From: an uncultured Eubacteriales bacterium | GTDB lineage: Bacteria > Bacillota_A > Clostridia > Oscillospirales > Oscillospiraceae | Assembly: GCA_949747935.1 (NCBI GenBank) | Contig: CATKHE010000167.1 | Coordinates: forward strand, 1 to 6,334 | DNA: 6,334 bases | Direction of reading: 5' to 3' | In this document: piece by piece, positions 1-6,334 of the stretch | Layout of the letters: each line of letters starts with the position of its first letter | How positions within the stretch are numbered: the first letter of the stretch is position 1 | Notes under the pieces: model-generated | What the model was told of the DNA's origin: nothing | Database searches by the model: none | The model's input: only the letters and a program-made list of their open reading frames with translations | Made by a program: the position numbers and the translations under genes

Positions 1-196
1 ATGCTCGCCTCCATGAGCGCGCCCGCGCAGCCGGAACCGGAGCCTGCGCCTGTACAGGAGCCCCCCGCGCCCCAGTCCCCCTCCGGCGGCAAGATGAGTC
101 AGGATGACATTGAGGCCATGCTCGCCTCCATGAGCGCGCCCGCACAGCCGGAACCGGAGCCTGCGCCTGTACAGGAGCCCCCCGCGGCCCAATCCA
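1..196 (+). repeat. In-frame tandem repeat, 117-bp period (39 codons)
   Basis: Bases 1-79 recur at 118-196 with only about three mismatches (for example G27 versus A144, and the Pro/Ala codon difference near 70/187). The spacer between them holds SPSGGK and MSQDDIEA, and the second MSQDDIEA presumably had a counterpart upstream of base 1. The near-identity includes synonymous positions, which points to recent duplication or continuing gene conversion and not to protein-level selection alone. The number of copies upstream is unknown. Confidence 0.85.
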
Positions 197-489
197 AGCC
201 CCCCGCATCGCCGACGGAGGATATCTCCTATACCAACATTATGCAGACCCTGGTGGAGGAGAAGGCTCCCCGATATATTAAAATGTTTGGGCTGTGCACC
301 TGCAAACACTGTGAAGCGGACGTCAAGGCCCTTACGCTCAGCAATCTGGTGCCCAAGTATGTGGTGCTGTCCAAGCAGGACATGATCCCCATGCTCACTG
401 TCTACGAGGGCCGCTACAACTCCACCATTATCGCTCAGCTCACCCGGTCCTGCAAGACGGTTATGGACCACCCCCACCACGGAAGATAA
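1..489 (+). CDS. ComFB-domain protein with tandem FliM/FliN-like peptide repeats, 5' end cut off
   Basis: The frame is open from base 1 to a TAA at 487-489, giving 162 visible residues. Position 1 falls inside a repeat, so the true start is upstream of the window. Visible residues 1-70 are low-complexity Pro/Glu/Ala linker with a 39-residue repeat; residues 32-44 read MSQDDIEAMLASM and the window opens with the end of an earlier copy. Residues 77-160 match the ComFB family: NIMQTLVEE helix, CTCKHC at 99-104, ADVKALTLSNLVPKYVV, and a final helix ending in HPHH. From family knowledge, ComFB of Bacillus subtilis is a small dimer that binds zinc through these cysteines, and ComFB homologues have been reported as cyclic-dinucleotide receptors. 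The repeats resemble the LSQxEIDALL segment that begins FliM and FliN and, in FliM, binds CheY-P. The gene converges on cheV and is not part of that operon. A motility-linked signalling role is inference; the ComFB assignment is firm. Confidence 0.85.
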   Translation: MLASMSAPAQPEPEPAPVQEPPAPQSPSGGKMSQDDIEAMLASMSAPAQPEPEPAPVQEPPAAQSKPPASPTEDISYTNIMQTLVEEKAPRYIKMFGLCTCKHCEADVKALTLSNLVPKYVVLSKQDMIPMLTVYEGRYNSTIIAQLTRSCKTVMDHPHHGR

Positions 490-493
490 ACGG

Positions 494-523
494 GCCGGTC
501 CCGGGCATATGCCCGGGACCGGC
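494..523. repeat. Perfect 30-bp palindrome between convergent genes
   Basis: The 15-base arm GCCGGTCCCGGGCAT at 494-508 is followed immediately by its exact reverse complement at 509-523, centred on CATATG. It starts five bases after the stop of the ComFB gene. As RNA it would make a very stable GC-rich hairpin. On the plus strand it is followed by six A and not U, so alone it is not a canonical terminator in that direction. It probably acts with the adjacent hairpin at 524-552, either as a 3'-end protecting stem or as part of a tandem terminator. Confidence 0.75.
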
Positions 524-552
524 AAAAAACCGGCCTTACGGCCGGCTTTTTT
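524..552. terminator. Bidirectional intrinsic terminator shared by the ComFB gene and cheV
   Basis: CCGGCC (530-535) pairs with GGCCGG (540-545) around a TTAC loop. Six A (524-529) lie on the left and six T (547-552) on the right, and the T tract continues as ATTTTT to 558. Each strand therefore has a GC stem followed by a U run. It would stop plus-strand transcripts from the ComFB gene and minus-strand transcripts from the flagellar operon. The TAA of cheV (551-553) lies inside the T tract, so cheV ends directly at its terminator. Confidence 0.85.
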
Positions 553-1474
553 ATTTTTCAGCGTTTTCTTCCAGCAGGTGGTCCATCACATCCACCAGAT
601 GGCCGATCTCCGGCTTGCTCATCTGCTCGTCAGCCCCCAGCTGACGGCCCTTAATCCGCATCTCCTCACTGATGAGAGAGGAGAATATAATCAGCGGAAC
701 CGGCTGGAAACGGGGATCACTCTTAATCAGCTTGGTCAGCCGGTGGCCGTCCATTTGCGGCATCTCGATATCAGTGATGACCAAGGCCACATGGTCAAAC
801 AGTCTGCCATTCTTGGGCAGGGCGTTCAGCGCTTCCCACAGCTCCCGCCCGTTGGAGAACATTCGCAGATTGACATACCCGGCTTTGCGCAGGCACTCCT
901 CAATCATTTTGGACAGGAGAATGGAGTCTTCCGCAATCCAGATGGGCTCGGTGCTCCGACTCCGGGGCCCCATCTGGTCAATCTCTTCCATCTGGATGGT
1001 AGTCTCAGGGGCAATCTCGGCCACAATGCGCTCGAAATCCAGAATAGTGACCAGGTCCTTGCCGCACTGAGCAATTCCGGTGGCCACACCCTCAGAACCG
1101 CCGGACACCGTCTTGTCCGGCTTGTGAATGTCAGTCCAGGAGATACGGCTGATGCCCACCACAGTATGAACCCGGAATGCGATGAACATCTTGTTGAAAT
1201 TGGTGACGATGAACAGGTCCTTCAGGCTCTTCTCCTTGTCCACGCTCAGATACCTGGGCAGGTCCACCACAGTGATCACGATGTCTCTGGGCTTGAAGAT
1301 GCCCTCCACCGCGGGATGGGCATGGGGCATGACCTTCACCGGCGCAGACAGGATAATCTCCCGCACCTTGGCCACATTAATGCCATACAGATTATCGTCG
1401 ATGGTAAATTCCATGATCTCAATCTCGTTGGTGCCGGACTCCAAAAGAATACCGCTGTTATGTACCTCCGCCAT
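551..1474 (-). CDS. cheV: Chemotaxis coupling protein CheV (CheW-like domain fused to a receiver domain)
   Basis: The 307-residue product has the normal CheV length and order. A CheW-like domain spans about residues 15-160 (EIMEFTIDDNLYGINVAKVREI, then VVDLPRYL and GKDLVTILDFERI). A response-regulator receiver spans about 177-300. Receiver residues are visible: acidic pair E182/D183 (IAEDS), phosphoacceptor D235 in TDIEMPQMDG, S266 in IIFSS at the switch position, and K287 in MSKPE. CheV couples chemoreceptors to CheA as CheW does, and its receiver is phosphorylated by CheA to adjust adaptation. I start at the ATG at 1474 because GAGGAG lies 8 nt upstream; the in-frame GTG at 1483 overlaps that Shine-Dalgarno sequence and would add only three residues. 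It is the last gene of the leftward operon, 55 bp after cheD, and ends at the terminator. Confidence 0.96.
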   Translation of the reverse strand: MAEVHNSGILLESGTNEIEIMEFTIDDNLYGINVAKVREIILSAPVKVMPHAHPAVEGIFKPRDIVITVVDLPRYLSVDKEKSLKDLFIVTNFNKMFIAFRVHTVVGISRISWTDIHKPDKTVSGGSEGVATGIAQCGKDLVTILDFERIVAEIAPETTIQMEEIDQMGPRSRSTEPIWIAEDSILLSKMIEECLRKAGYVNLRMFSNGRELWEALNALPKNGRLFDHVALVITDIEMPQMDGHRLTKLIKSDPRFQPVPLIIFSSLISEEMRIKGRQLGADEQMSKPEIGHLVDVMDHLLEENAEK

Positions 1475-1482
1475 TGCTGACA

Positions 1483-1488
1483 CTCCTC
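1483..1488 (-). promoter_or_regulatory. Ribosome binding site of cheV
   Basis: GAGGAG on the minus strand, 8 nt before the ATG at 1474. It decides the start, because it overlaps the alternative upstream GTG (1481-1483). Confidence 0.75.
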
Positions 1489-1529: not shown

Positions 1530-2015
1530 TTAGAAAATAATATCCTTCTGGCCATAGGACCGAATACAGCCCTGCCCGCTGGCCACATCAAAAAGCAGGG
1601 TCCGGGCCACCTTGCCCCCCACGTCCTCCGCCAGGAGGCGGATATTTTCCCGCTTTAAAATCGTATGGACGCTCTCAATATTCCGCTGACCGATGTTGCC
1701 CAGACCAGCTCCGCCGCTGACCTCGAACATCTTTGCGCCGCCGGCGATCTTTACCGTCATCCGGCTGCGGGAGGCACCCTTGGCCTCCATCTGCCGCAGC
1801 GTCTCCTTGATGCCGGTGTCCGCATATTTCATCGGGTGAGTCCGTCCGGTCTCCATGTTCAGCGGCAGCATGATGTGCAGCAGCGCGCCCAGCCGCAGCC
1901 TCGGATCATGGAAACACAGGCCGATACAGGAACCTAACGCGTAAGTCACCAGAATGCCTTCCCCCTGGAGCAGCTTCATATCGGCGATTCCTACTGTCAG
2001 TTTACTCTCACGCAT
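1530..2015 (-). CDS. cheD: Chemoreceptor glutamine deamidase CheD
   Basis: The 161-residue protein matches CheD throughout: KLTVGIADMKLL, LVTYALGSCIGLC, LGALLHIMLP, KYADTGI, KIAGGAKMF, NIGQRNIESV and AEDVGGKVARTL. The catalytic triad is present as T24, C30 and H47, with the same spacing as the Thr-Cys-His triad of Thermotoga CheD. CheD deamidates specific receptor glutamines in the cytoplasm and exchanges between receptors and CheC, stimulating CheC phosphatase activity. Its ATG (2015) lies inside the end of cheC, an 8-bp overlap that suggests coupled translation and balanced amounts of the two partners. A possible AAGGA site at 2031-2035 is 15 nt from the start, rather far, which fits coupling with cheC. 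Length and all key residues look normal. Confidence 0.97.
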   Translation of the reverse strand: MRESKLTVGIADMKLLQGEGILVTYALGSCIGLCFHDPRLRLGALLHIMLPLNMETGRTHPMKYADTGIKETLRQMEAKGASRSRMTVKIAGGAKMFEVSGGAGLGNIGQRNIESVHTILKRENIRLLAEDVGGKVARTLLFDVASGQGCIRSYGQKDIIF

Positions 2016-2628
2016 CGCTAACGCCCAGCTTCCTTAATAAGAAATCCAAAGAGCGCAGATCCGGCGAGAGAAGCAGGTGGCAGGGGACTTCCTTCCCATC
2101 GCACACGAAATTTCCGCCAATGGCCATCAGATAGTCGGACATTCCGCCATACTCAGCCATCGGCACAGTCAGAATCGCGCCCTGCATGTCCACCGCGAAG
2201 GCGGGCACAGTGACCTTGATATGCACGTCGGCCAGACCGGACAGGGCGTTGATAAAGGTGGAAATCATGATATTCCCGATCTCTACCAGCGCGGACTGCT
2301 CCAGCTCAGTCAGGTGCTCATAGCTCTTGATGCTCTCGCCCAGCATGGCCCGCAGCACCAGATTGACCAGCTCCAGCTTCTGCACCGAAAGCATGATGCC
2401 GCCCACGTCGCCGCTCATCTTCACCAGCACGCCGGCGGTGACCTCCTCCGGGCCGCCGATCCACTCGATGGCCTCATTATACCCCATGATGCGCACCTCT
2501 GGCAAGGTAATTCTTACCTCCTGGTTCATCATTTGAGACAGAGCGGTCGCGGCGTTCCCTGTGCCGATACTGCCAATCTCCCGCAGGGTGTCAATCTCCA
2601 GCGAGGACAACTGATCATAATTTTTCAT
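2008..2628 (-). CDS. cheC: CheY-P phosphatase CheC with one altered active site
   Basis: The 206-residue protein is close to the length of Bacillus CheC and is built of two similar halves. CheC/FliY/CheX proteins carry the signature D/S-x3-E-x2-N-x22-P at each phosphatase site. The second copy is complete in ELEQSALVEIGNIMIST with the Pro exactly 22 residues after the Asn. The first copy reads DTLREIGS, then 22 residues, then P, so Ser20 replaces the Asn. The following GTGNAATALSQMM helix is typical of CheC. CheC removes phosphate from CheY-P and partners CheD, whose gene overlaps its 3' end. No SpoA (FliN-like) domain follows, so it is CheC and not FliY. A strong AAGGGGGAG site at 2636-2644 lies 7 nt upstream, and the stop of the preceding rod gene is 20 bp away. 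Activity is inferred to depend mainly on the second site. Confidence 0.96.
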   Translation of the reverse strand: MKNYDQLSSLEIDTLREIGSIGTGNAATALSQMMNQEVRITLPEVRIMGYNEAIEWIGGPEEVTAGVLVKMSGDVGGIMLSVQKLELVNLVLRAMLGESIKSYEHLTELEQSALVEIGNIMISTFINALSGLADVHIKVTVPAFAVDMQGAILTVPMAEYGGMSDYLMAIGGNFVCDGKEVPCHLLLSPDLRSLDFLLRKLGVSDA

Positions 2629-2648: not shown

Positions 2649-3428
2649 TCAGTTGGGCAGGCCGTTAATGGTCTGCTCGATCTCATCCGAGGTCTGTACC
2701 ATCCGCAGCGCGTAGCTGTAAGCCCGCTGGGATTCGATCACCTTGACCAGCTCCTGAGCCAGGTCCACGTTGGAGGTCTCCAGGACGCCCCGCTCCACCG
2801 TGCCGGTGCCCAGGTACAAATCTCCATTCTTGTCGACCGGCAGGAAACGGCCGCTGTCCGCATGGCTCATCCCGTCATAGATCCGGTAATCAAACACGCC
2901 CACATCCAGCTCTGCGTTCCGGTCCAGCGGGTCAATGACAATAAAGTTGCCCATGCGGTCCAGGACGCAGCGCCCCTCGTTGTCAGACAGCCGCCACTCT
3001 TCCCGAGGCTGGGGCGGAATCTCCTCACCGGTGATCGGGTCAATCTCGGGCTCGGCGTCCTCGGCGGGCGGAACCTCGAACCGGGCCATCGTAAACGCGC
3101 CGTCCCGGGTAAAGGATATCTCCCCGTCCGACAGATTATACAGGGCGAAGAACCCGTCGCCCATAATGGCGAAATCAAACAGGCGTCCGGTGTCAGCATA
3201 GCCTCCGGGCTCGAAGTCCACGCTGGCCTTCGCCAGCTTGGTGCCGCTGCCCTTGGGGAGGCGCTCCTGGTCGATTCCCGTCACATTGCCGTACATCAGA
3301 TGATGGAAGGTCGCCCGTTCCGCCTTATAGCCGTAGTTGTTTACGTTCGCGATGTTGTTGGCCTGGACGTTCATCCGCTGCTGCTGCTGATACGCGCCCA
3401 CAGCGCCGGTGAAAAAGGACATATTCAT
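2649..3428 (-). CDS. Flagellar hook-basal body (rod) protein, FlgF/FlgG family, second copy
   Basis: With the ATG at 3428 the product has 259 residues. The N-terminus (MNMSFFTGAVGAYQQQQRMNVQANNIANVNNYGYKAE, residues 1-37) is the flagellar rod/hook N-terminal helix with the ANNIANVN motif. The centre has FDFAIMGDGFFAL (84-96) and SFTRDGAFTM (105-114), typical of FlgF/FlgG/FlgE. The C-terminal helix has LETSNVDLAQELVKVIESQRAYSYAL (216-241). Such proteins are secreted through the flagellar export gate without a cleaved signal and polymerise into the axial rod. An in-frame GTG at 3440 adds four residues but has GAAAGG only 1 nt upstream; from the ATG the same site is 13 nt away, and the family usually begins MNMSF. 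Residues 119-145 form an acidic, proline-rich insertion (PPAEDAEPEID, then PITGEEIPPQP). Whether it is distal (FlgG) or proximal (FlgF) rod cannot be settled here. Confidence 0.93.
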   Translation of the reverse strand: MNMSFFTGAVGAYQQQQRMNVQANNIANVNNYGYKAERATFHHLMYGNVTGIDQERLPKGSGTKLAKASVDFEPGGYADTGRLFDFAIMGDGFFALYNLSDGEISFTRDGAFTMARFEVPPAEDAEPEIDPITGEEIPPQPREEWRLSDNEGRCVLDRMGNFIVIDPLDRNAELDVGVFDYRIYDGMSHADSGRFLPVDKNGDLYLGTGTVERGVLETSNVDLAQELVKVIESQRAYSYALRMVQTSDEIEQTINGLPN

Positions 3429-3492
3429 AGCTGTCTTCACGCCTTTCTTTTACGGGGGAGGGGGACAGTGCCGCGTCCCGCGATATATCATA

Positions 3493-4245
3493 TTACAGCC
3501 GGCCGATATCGTTTACGCCCCGCTTGATTACCTCATCATAAATCTTGCTCATCTGGGCGGCGCTCTGGAGAGCCCGCTGGGTGGACATCATGCTGACCAT
3601 CTCCTTCACCAGATTCACGTTGGAGCGCTCCACCCACTTGTGGTGAATCACGGCGTTCTCATTGATCTGAGCCCCCTCGCCGGTAAACAGGCCGTAGGGG
3701 GTGCGCTCCAGGGCGTTGTTGTCCTCAAACATGAAGACGCCCAGACTGCCCAGATATTCTCCGCCCTTGGTAAACAGGTTCCCCTGCTGATCCGCCTCCA
3801 GCTTGTCGGTGGGCAGCTGGATGGGGTTTCCCTCCCGGTCCAGCACCCGGCCCAGCTCTGACAGGCACAGATAGCCCTCATTGTCCAGGGTGAAGCTGCC
3901 CGCCCGGGTGTAGGCCACGCCGTTGCCCGTTTCGATGGCGAAGAAGCCTTCTCCCTGAATCGCGAAATCCAGGGGCAGGTTGGTCTGCTCGAAAGAGCTC
4001 TGCCCAAAATCGGTATACAGCTGGTCAGGGGCCAGGATATGGCTCTGATAGGTCTCCATTGTCTGGTAGGGGGTCTTAATCTTGTTGCCGATCCGGGTCA
4101 CCATCACCTCGTCAAAGGTGCGGTCGGTGTAGTGCTCGGCCTTATATCCGGCGGTGGAGACGTTGGTCATATTGTTGGCCACTACGTCCAGCCGGCGCCC
4201 CTGGGAGAGCATCCCGGAGGTCAGGTTGTAAAACCCTCTCATCAT
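3493..4245 (-). CDS. Flagellar hook-basal body (rod) protein, FlgF/FlgG family, first copy
   Basis: The 250-residue protein begins MMRGFYNLTSGMLSQGRRLDVVANNMTNVSTAGYKAE, the rod-protein N-terminal helix with an NN-x-x-NV-x-T-x-GYK motif. The central domain has LDFAIQGEGFFAIET (92-106) and AYTRAGSFTLDNEGYL. The C-terminus has VERSNVNLVKEMVSMMSTQRALQSAAQM (208-235), the FlgG-type coiled helix. There is no signal peptide, as expected for a substrate of the flagellar export apparatus. Two ATG codons are adjacent (4245 and 4242); GAGAGGAG at 4255-4262 is 9 nt from the first, which is preferred. It lies 22 bp after fliA and 64 bp before a second family member, like the flhO-flhP or flgF-flgG pairs of Firmicutes. 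The two proteins are clearly diverged and not recent duplicates. Confidence 0.93.
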   Translation of the reverse strand: MMRGFYNLTSGMLSQGRRLDVVANNMTNVSTAGYKAEHYTDRTFDEVMVTRIGNKIKTPYQTMETYQSHILAPDQLYTDFGQSSFEQTNLPLDFAIQGEGFFAIETGNGVAYTRAGSFTLDNEGYLCLSELGRVLDREGNPIQLPTDKLEADQQGNLFTKGGEYLGSLGVFMFEDNNALERTPYGLFTGEGAQINENAVIHHKWVERSNVNLVKEMVSMMSTQRALQSAAQMSKIYDEVIKRGVNDIGRL

Positions 4246-4267: not shown

Positions 4268-5086
4268 TCACTGTCTGCCAGTCATATACTGGTTCATATA
4301 CAGCTTCAGCTTCTGGATGGCCCGGGAATGGAGCTGGGAAATGCGGGGCTCGCTGACCTCCATCACCTGGGCAATCTCCTTCATGCTGAGATTTTTGTGG
4401 TAGTAGAGGGAGATGACTGTCTGCTCGTTTTCCCTCAGCGACGCGATTGCCTTGGTCAGGGTCTCCAGCATCTCCTGCCGGAGCATGGCGTCCTCCGGCC
4501 GGCTGTCCAGCCCGCCATCAGGCACCTCCGCCCCACCATTCTGCTCCCGATCCTCAAACAGGGCGTCCAGGGAGAGAACGTTGCACATGGAGGAGTTCGC
4601 CAGGTCCTCCTGATACTGATTCTGGGTTACCCCCAGCTTTTCCGCCATCTCCCGGTCGGTGGGGTAGCGGCCCAGTTCGGAAAAGAGCTCGCTGCTGGCC
4701 TGGTCAATGTTCCGGGCCTTCCGGCGCACACTGCGGGGCACCCAGTCCTGCCGCCGTGCCAGGTCGATCACTGCTCCCCGGATACGCTTGGAAACATAGG
4801 TTTCAAATTTGATTCCCTTCTCCGGGTCGAATTTGTCTACCGCACCCGCCAGGGTGAGCAGGCCCTCGTTGACGATATCGTCCACCTGGGCGAAGCTGGA
4901 ATATACCCCCCGCACCTGGAGTGCGATGGTCTTCACCAGCCCCACATAGCGCATGACCAGCGGCCATTTCAGCTCCTCACTTCCGGTGCGCTTGTAGGCC
5001 TGGAACAGCTCCTCAGCGGTCATGGCGTCCAGTTCCTCCTGTGTCCAGCTCCGCTCCTCCTGGCTGGAGGCCGCCAGCCGGGTCAT
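4268..5086 (-). CDS. fliA: Flagellar RNA polymerase sigma factor, sigma-28 (FliA/SigD)
   Basis: The 272-residue protein has the three regions of a group 3 sigma factor. Region 2 covers about 44-125 with DDIVNEGLLTLAGAVDKFDP, GIKFETYVSKRIRGAVIDLAR and the W115-V-P-R motif characteristic of FliA/SigD. Region 3 is about 127-165 (LGRYPTDREMAEKLGV). Region 4 is about 204-262 (LRENEQTVISLYYHKNLSMKEIAQVMEVSEPRISQLHSRAI), containing the helix-turn-helix. Residues 1-28 are a short hydrophilic N-terminal extension. It directs transcription of late flagellar, motor and chemotaxis genes and is normally held by FlgM until hook completion; flgM is not visible here. Its ATG overlaps the flhA stop in an ATGA arrangement, with GAGAAGGG (5097-5104) 10 nt upstream inside flhA, so translation is probably coupled. 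No flhF, flhG or pilZ gene intervenes. Confidence 0.97.
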   Translation of the reverse strand: MTRLAASSQEERSWTQEELDAMTAEELFQAYKRTGSEELKWPLVMRYVGLVKTIALQVRGVYSSFAQVDDIVNEGLLTLAGAVDKFDPEKGIKFETYVSKRIRGAVIDLARRQDWVPRSVRRKARNIDQASSELFSELGRYPTDREMAEKLGVTQNQYQEDLANSSMCNVLSLDALFEDREQNGGAEVPDGGLDSRPEDAMLRQEMLETLTKAIASLRENEQTVISLYYHKNLSMKEIAQVMEVSEPRISQLHSRAIQKLKLYMNQYMTGRQ

Positions 5087-6334
5087 ACGGCGGCCGCCCT
5101 TCTCTCAGGCTTGGCCAGCGTGATGTTGCCTAGGGACTGAATCTGCACGTCGCTGGTAATCTCATTGAAGGAAAGCACATAGACACTGGGATAGAACTGG
5201 GCCAGCATCCGGCTGAGATAGACCCGGATCACCTGACTGGTGAGGACAATAGGGGTTTGGGACAGATCGCTGAATTTTTTCAGGTAGTCGGCCAGTTGGG
5301 TCACAATGGTCTGCATCAGGTCGGGGCCCATGGCCAGATAAATTCCCTGTTCGTTTTTGCTCAGGGAGCTGATGACGCGCTTCTCCACCTCCGCGTCCAG
5401 GGTGACCACCCGGAGCTGACCATGTTCGCAGAAACGTCGGGTAATGGTGCGGCTGAGGGCCACGCGGATGTTCTCGCACACCATATCCAGGTCCTTGGTG
5501 GTCATCAGGGAATCCACCGCGGTCTCCAGGATGGTGCCCAGGTCCCGGACAGGGACCCCCTCCTTCAGCAGGCTTCTCAGGATGCGCTCCAGGTTGGCGT
5601 AGGACAGCACATTGGGAATGGCCTCCTCCACCAGCTCGGGGGCGGTACGCTTCAGGTTCTCCACCAGCTGCATGACCTCCGCCCGTCCCAACAGCTCGTA
5701 GGCGTGGCGGCGGACCACCTCGCTCAGGTGGGTCTGCATGACGGACAGCGGGTCGATTACGGTGTAGCCGTAAATTTCCGCCATCTCTTTGTTCTCGGGC
5801 AGAATCCACCGGGAGGGAATGCCGTAGGCGGGCTCGATGGTCTCAATGCCGTCGATCTCCCCGGCGGGGTTGGAGGGCTCCAGGGCCAGGTAGTAGTCCA
5901 CCAGAATTTCGCCCCGGGCCACCTCCTCGCCCTTGATCTTCACCACATATTGGTTGGTGCCCAGGGCGGAGGAGTCGTGGAGGCGGATGGATGGGATGAC
6001 AAAGCCCATGTCCTGGGCGTACTGCCGGCGGAAAATAACAATACGGCTGATGAGCTTGCCGCCGCTGCTCTCGTCCACCAGGGGGATCAGGCTGTAGCCA
6101 AACTCCATCTCGATGGGGTCTACCGTCAGCAGCCCATATACGTTGTTGATATCCTTGTAGTAGTCAGTCTCGCTGGGGGCGGCCGCCATCGCGGCCTCCG
6201 CAGGCTCTTCCGCCTGGGCCAGCTCGACGGTCTCCTTCCGCTCCAGCCGGCCGGTCATCATAAAGCCCAGCACGGTCAGGCCAATGCCCACAAACATCAG
6301 GGGGATGGTGGGGGTGCCGGGGATGACGCCCAGG
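5083..6334 (-). CDS. flhA: Flagellar export gate protein FlhA, C-terminal part (5' end outside the window)
   Basis: 416 residues are visible, reading from the window edge to the TGA at 5083-5085; FlhA is usually near 690 residues, so roughly 270-280 N-terminal residues, including most membrane helices, are missing. The visible part begins LGVIPGTPTIPL, the conserved stretch before the last transmembrane helix (about visible residues 9-32). An Ala/Glu-rich linker follows (about 33-55). The cytoplasmic domain has DPIEMEFGYSL (72-82), the IRLHDSS strand, EPAYGIP (167-173), the TVIDPLSVMQTHLSEVV region around 191-207 and the LLKEGVPVRDLGTILE helix. FlhA forms the nonameric ring of the flagellar type III export gate, and its cytoplasmic domain docks substrate-chaperone complexes. 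The ATG at 6297 is internal and not the start. It overlaps fliA by 4 bp. Confidence 0.97.
   Translation of the reverse strand, partial: LGVIPGTPTIPLMFVGIGLTVLGFMMTGRLERKETVELAQAEEPAEAAMAAAPSETDYYKDINNVYGLLTVDPIEMEFGYSLIPLVDESSGGKLISRIVIFRRQYAQDMGFVIPSIRLHDSSALGTNQYVVKIKGEEVARGEILVDYYLALEPSNPAGEIDGIETIEPAYGIPSRWILPENKEMAEIYGYTVIDPLSVMQTHLSEVVRRHAYELLGRAEVMQLVENLKRTAPELVEEAIPNVLSYANLERILRSLLKEGVPVRDLGTILETAVDSLMTTKDLDMVCENIRVALSRTITRRFCEHGQLRVVTLDAEVEKRVISSLSKNEQGIYLAMGPDLMQTIVTQLADYLKKFSDLSQTPIVLTSQVIRVYLSRMLAQFYPSVYVLSFNEITSDVQIQSLGNITLAKPERRAAAV

Follow-up and report, generated by a model that had tools for sequence, protein, structure and literature searches.

The stretch of DNA analyzed here (the window, 6,334 nucleotides of contig CATKHE010000167.1 from an uncultured Eubacteriales bacterium) starts inside a gene encoding a ComFB-domain protein with FliM/FliY-type switch peptides, referred to below as the ComFB adaptor. 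The open reading frame (ORF) at 1..489 on the forward strand is open at the left edge of the window and is therefore truncated at its 5′ end; the ORF list, a match to PF10719 and the near-identical full-length protein P0002 identify it as the 3′ part of the adaptor gene. The ComFB domain with CTCKHC described in an initial annotation of this DNA was recovered by PF10719 at residues 79–158 (235..474, 43.8 bits against a cut-off of 25), with CTCKHC at residues 99–104 (295..312). When the domain of a relative was aligned to 4wai, this CxCxxC motif, which is invariant in our alignment A1, corresponded to one portion of the zinc site described for Bacillus subtilis ComFB, a zinc-binding protein whose ligands are C25, C27, and C30 (PMC4381287). 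The modelled ComFB fold matches the cyclic di-GMP (c-di-GMP)-bound CdgR structure 8hja among the chains ranked by Foldseek, a comparison that leaves room for further folds, in agreement with the receptor-type domain proposed initially. ComFB/CdgR proteins bind c-di-GMP and cyclic di-AMP (c-di-AMP) (PMC12313861, PMC13075795); the residues of 8hja that contact c-di-GMP were looked for in the literature passages available and not found there. Upstream of the domain, the complete FliM/FliY-type motif MSQDDIEAML (residues 32–41, 94..123) forms an isolated helix (residues 34–44) in the AlphaFold2 model, with a predicted local distance difference test score of 73 for the block and low-confidence linkers on both sides. 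It is preceded at 1..93 by the remainder of an upstream repeat unit, consisting of the end of the motif (MLASM) and a Pro/Glu/Ala-rich linker. Direct-repeat comparison showed that nucleotides 1–78 recur at 118–195 with a period of 117 nucleotides and 96% identity, so that, as first described, a complete motif follows the end of another unit; the 2 units are nearly but not fully identical.

To describe the complete protein we relied on relatives. A protein search returned 552 homologues, and the counts per protein given below rest on the 120 listed. P0002 (271 amino acids, 99% identity over the window protein) starts with MASGKKGAKGNKTAHVLNLL, continues with a second conserved block, RRPLLPPILEVAQANDDNLAQQIQQALEDEF, and then carries 2 motif copies followed by the ComFB domain. 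Full-length relatives share this layout, with a conserved basic N-terminus, 1 to 6 motif copies and the ComFB domain, which bears out the multivalent array of switch-type helices proposed in the initial annotation. The N-terminal block was present in 78 of the 120 listed homologues, the remainder including fragments, and a fixed-pattern search found at least 1 motif copy in 94 and none in 26, some of them fragments. In total, 145 ten-residue units matched at least 9 of the 10 motif positions, whereas 200 shuffled versions of the sequence preceding the final 100 residues gave a mean of 0.01 and at most 1. The motif is conserved at the protein level: its residues are fixed while the linkers diverge (41 distinct among 51), and its invariant residues are encoded by synonymously varying codons in all 3 protein families that carry it (see below). 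The shuffles, the fixed-pattern counts and the synonymous codon variation rule out a chance origin. In one locus (L028:7152-8123), the linker of the same adaptor is also expanded by another repeat, LPEGVLGWDENGQPIWDP (WDENGQPI runs), and by a long EP run.

The full-length loci revealed a partner gene. A gene for a ParA-type ATPase lies directly upstream of the long comFB gene, on the same strand, in all 10 array-clade loci and all 26 other loci with upstream DNA; 8 array-clade loci and 3 others end at a contig edge before this position and are outside these counts. The same arrangement was found in 14 further long-ComFB loci (5 and 9 in 2 later sets), and in G334, a single contig, the parA gene lies some 20 nucleotides upstream of a gene for a ComFB protein with 4 motif copies. 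The adaptor N-terminus contains 2 to 5 K/R against 0 to 2 D/E residues in 32/32 readable blocks (37 loci scanned), and a short positively charged N-terminus is a trait of known ParA/MinD activators (PMC7993993, PMC10241942). Among solved structures, the relatives of this ATPase are closest to ParA/Soj proteins, and none of 17 matches is named FlhG; identification of the ATPase as FlhG is thus unsupported. The long ComFB goes with flagellation: among 300 evenly sampled genomes of one family, 60 of them flagellated as judged by a FliMN_C match, a long ComFB was present in 29 (3 of them cut at the 5′ end), and 28 of these 29 are flagellated, compared with 32 of the other 271 (p 1e-21, not corrected for kinship). 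The exception is G234, which has no FliM/FliY match. Both the ParA partner and the basic N-terminus escaped the initial annotation because the window starts too late to include them. Its array, receptor-type domain, and link to flagella and chemotaxis are retained in the present interpretation, with the ParA pairing added and the likeness to FliM loosened.

The motif is not confined to ComFB proteins. FliY of these bacteria has no N-terminal motif and often carries 1 to 5 motif copies in its middle linker (L033:7185-8687 and the FliY genes of L146–L175). A census of 246 loci (1.14 Mb), in which flagellar regions are overrepresented, ORFs were assigned by simple patterns and the motif definition omits FliM, gave 98 distinct motif-bearing ORFs, all of them FliY, ComFB, or members of a third family; the lone ORF initially sorted as "other" is the ComFB of L125. 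A wide occurrence of the motif in unrelated proteins, which would have counted against the initial annotation, was not seen in these loci. The third family combines a HipA-N/HipS-like N-terminal domain with many SQDDIE motifs (L016, L019, L020, L021, L024, L025, L026, L029, and L031), and in L016, L020, and L025 its gene and a HAMP-PAS-GGDEF gene are divergent. Scans of 4 third-family proteins matched no kinase domain. In a tree of the ParA proteins from 49 loci, 44 of which were scored for array state and FliY copies, the array state of ComFB changes 3 times: in the window's clade, in G353/G355, and in G036, which sits on a long branch and has 1 copy in ComFB and 3 in FliY. We read these changes as gains, although the counts cannot separate gain from loss. 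Genomes with an array-bearing ComFB have 0 to 1 copies in FliY in 16/17 cases (3 FliY sequences are cut and give lower bounds), whereas array-free ComFB genomes have at least 2 copies in 23/27 and 0 to 1 in 4/27; G349, a near array-free relative, has a FliY with 2 copies. The plain rank correlation between copy numbers in FliY and ComFB is -0.42 (p 0.03, 27 genomes).

We then compared the array units with the FliM N-termini of these genomes, which read SQSQIDALL or TQ(A/E)QIDEML with D in 32/32 readable cases. The arrays and FliY linkers read mostly SQ(D/E)(D/E)IE or SQAEIE, with E in 156 and D in 4 of 160 candidate array units (13 of which are unrelated IQQALE matches). CheY binding sites have been described as EIDALL in FliM and FliY (PMC9126983) and as LSQxEIDxLL in FliM (PMC5677366); the array fails the latter consensus, which includes ID, and keeps the SQ, I, and L positions. 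Judged by their sequence, the arrays are of a FliY-like class and not copies of FliM, so that of the FliM mimicry proposed initially the helix type holds and the closer resemblance does not. By sequence pattern, a CheY-like gene adjoins fliM/fliY in 18 of the 20 loci read from array-ComFB and third-family genomes. The change from D to E is conservative yet systematic, and docking of CheY would thus be the most economical shared explanation for the arrays and the FliY linkers.

The rest of the window is occupied by a flagellar-chemotaxis neighborhood on the reverse strand, as initially annotated. Two terminator-like hairpins (494..545; 2 found against a mean of 0.2 in shuffles) separate comFB from the convergent cheV gene (551..1483), whose product combines CheW and receiver domains. 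Domain matches further identify cheD (1530..2015), cheC (2008..2628), 2 flagellar rod/hook genes of the FlgF/FlgG type (2649-4245), fliA for the flagellar sigma factor (4268..5086) and, together with the ORF list, flhA (5083..6333), which runs off the window. fliA and flhA share 4 bases (5083-5086), and no flhF-flhG lies between them. A genome scan gave 34 loci, 15 of them with an array-bearing ComFB (L001–L015); 11 of these 15 preserve the gene order of the window from the convergent cheV onward, including L002–L004, which have 1 additional gene ahead of cheV. In L006, no cheV was found within 464 bases downstream of the ComFB gene, and in L008, L012, and L015 the ComFB gene is located elsewhere. 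A gene for an EAL-HDOD protein stands between comFB and cheV, convergent to comFB, in L002 (8447-9724), L113, L117, and other relatives; it adjoins comFB in 21/29 loci outside the array clade compared with 3/15 inside, and the window and most loci of its clade are without it. In the one protein examined, the EAL match is confined to the second half of the domain, and EAL-HDOD may therefore be inactive. GGDEF proteins were present in 17/17 genomes tested.

Altogether, we tentatively favor, at somewhat less than an even chance, a reading in which the ComFB adaptor is the partner of a ParA ATPase in the flagellar-chemotaxis locus of an Oscillospiraceae-type gut clade and acts as a second-messenger-gated docking platform for CheY, tuning the supply of phosphorylated CheY (CheY-P) to the motor and thereby possibly swimming. 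The short basic N-terminus would contact ParA on the nucleoid and activate it, and ParA would in turn set the location of the adaptor. The C-terminal ComFB domain would form a dimer that binds a cyclic dinucleotide, most likely c-di-GMP, while the FliY-type helices of the disordered linker, variable in number, would hold several CheY molecules (probably CheY-P); the ligand on the dimer would decide whether the adaptor holds or releases them. In the window's clade, the adaptor may have taken over a docking array that many relatives keep in the rotor protein FliY. A bolder version, which we consider possible but doubtful, describes a ParA positioning system whose partner is a c-di-GMP receptor that captures CheY-P off the motor through transplanted rotor helices, as a spatial buffer of tunable valency, the array being mobile among FliY, ComFB, and a protein linked to a diguanylate cyclase.

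Several observations weigh against the CheY-docking platform. The array has IE where the CheY-binding FliM has ID, and in Caulobacter CheY and Cle action is reported to require the ID pair, its change abolishing reversals and Cle binding (PMC5677366). ParA pairing was read in the loci of relatives, the window itself starting inside comFB. Most long ComFB proteins outside the window's clade lack the array, and 27 of the 44 scored loci are without one. Such absence from orthologues would have spoken against the initial annotation, and it is balanced in part by the motif copies that array-free genomes carry in FliY; because ParA-ComFB pairs outside the clade are mostly array-free, the array is an addition and not a core part of the system. 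Copy number is also unstable: proteins with identical N-terminal block and ComFB domain differ by one copy (P0027 and P0087 have 1 and 0), at least 7 array-state changes occur on a short, weakly supported protein tree, and the motif of P0073 has decayed. Part of this instability may reflect collapse of repeats in short-read assemblies. The trade-off between FliY and ComFB is not significant after correction for kinship, which it cannot be with only 3 state changes, and G036 has arrays in both proteins. Finally, linkage to cheV is loose, since ComFB was found in 8 of 19 cheV-side regions from further genomes; of the remaining regions, 2 were too short and 9 came from genomes with ComFB elsewhere, in several of them on the same contig at a distance of some kilobases.

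Elsewhere, FlhG is known to bind FliY, or FliM through its N-terminus (PMC12826062). In an alternative reading, the array would accordingly recruit the ParA ATPase or some other assembly factor instead of CheY, and the pair would replace FlhF-FlhG in setting flagellar number or place. The IE class of the array, unlike the ID of FliM, would suit such a partner, as would the distribution of FlhF. No FlhF exceeded the curated TIGR03499 cut-off in 40 related genomes, 26 of them ParA-ComFB genomes of the 300-genome sample (including G234, without a FliM/FliY match), compared with 10 of the 32 flagellated genomes without the pair (p 0.001, not corrected for kinship). However, the other 22 of these 32 also lack an FlhF above the cut-off, only 2 of 14 control genomes exceed it, and all 40 genomes contain sub-cut-off matches of up to 97 bits, some of which, in third-family genomes, span most of the model and could be divergent FlhF proteins. 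The Soj-like character of the ATPase and the mostly array-free ParA-ComFB proteins outside the clade also argue against this alternative, which we consider unlikely overall. We consider it quite unlikely that the array has no dedicated partner and is a tandem repeat, neutral or under slight selection, that spreads through Pro/Ala/Glu-rich linkers. The near-identical units within each protein, their unstable number and the other expansions of these linkers, such as the EP and WDENGQPI runs of L028, would fit a repeat of this kind, but fixed motif residues amid diverging linkers and varied synonymous codons, the restriction of the motif to 3 protein families in the DNA examined, and the 3 ComFB state changes on the ParA tree would not. 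About as unlikely is a genuine adaptor whose ComFB senses c-di-AMP or a zinc/redox state in place of c-di-GMP and couples that to motility. The invariant CxCxxC and the zinc of B. subtilis ComFB (PMC4381287) would accommodate it, but the EAL-HDOD gene beside ComFB in many loci, with its EAL domain matched over half its length, and the GGDEF genes beside the third family point to c-di-GMP.

The CheY-docking platform can be set beside several known systems. With the ComFB/CdgR family (PF10719), the adaptor shares the domain, the CxCxxC motif and the fold, but B. subtilis ComFB and Synechocystis ComFB (20.4 kDa) are small, whereas the adaptor is long, with a basic N-terminus, a docking array and ComFB at its end. 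B. subtilis ComFB is said, in a bioRxiv report, to suppress motility. A stand-alone ComFB of about 100 amino acids, apart from the flagellar one, is also present in most genomes of L085–L112. FliY, a CheC-FliN rotor protein, has the same motif class, but it is a rotor component and has 0 to 1 copies in the window's clade. FlhF-FlhG systems likewise place a ParA/MinD-type ATPase in a flagellar locus and involve EIDAL-type peptides, the present system differing in its Soj-like ParA, its ComFB partner and the lack of an FlhF above the cut-off in the 40 genomes. MapZ acts on the methyltransferase CheR. Like other PilZ adaptors, it is a c-di-GMP adaptor acting on chemotaxis (PMC6370697), with a PilZ domain where our adaptor has ComFB. 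The Cle proteins of Caulobacter, to which the adaptor can be likened, couple c-di-GMP to the interface between CheY and the FliM peptide (PMC5677366); they are CheY-like and bind that peptide, whereas the adaptor bears a multiplied FliM-type peptide on the receptor protein. With the ParA/MinD partners PomX, TlpT, McdB, and ParB, the adaptor shares pairing with a ParA ATPase (here deduced from the genes) and a short basic N-terminus, and it resembles PomX, with its Ala/Pro-rich N-terminal and self-associating C-terminal parts (PMC7993993, PMC10241942); no sequence relation is apparent, and the C-terminus of cyclic-dinucleotide-receptor type and the switch-peptide arrays set the adaptor apart. 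The architecture is not described in the titles and abstract openings listed by our literature searches, a coverage that leaves out preprints and most subscription papers. If the reading is right, a ParA ATPase would have a flagellar role outside FlhG and ParC, ComFB would act in motility as a physical adaptor, and at least 3 lineages would offer a natural experiment in which a motor docking peptide sits on a soluble receptor of second-messenger type. Experiments could then ask whether trans capture of CheY-P determines the gain of the motor, and by what means gut Oscillospiraceae in which no FlhF passed the cut-off manage their flagella. A search of viral contigs for relatives of the window found none; among 64 genomes of the genus of G001, the best DNA match to the window was G001 itself, with 85% identity.
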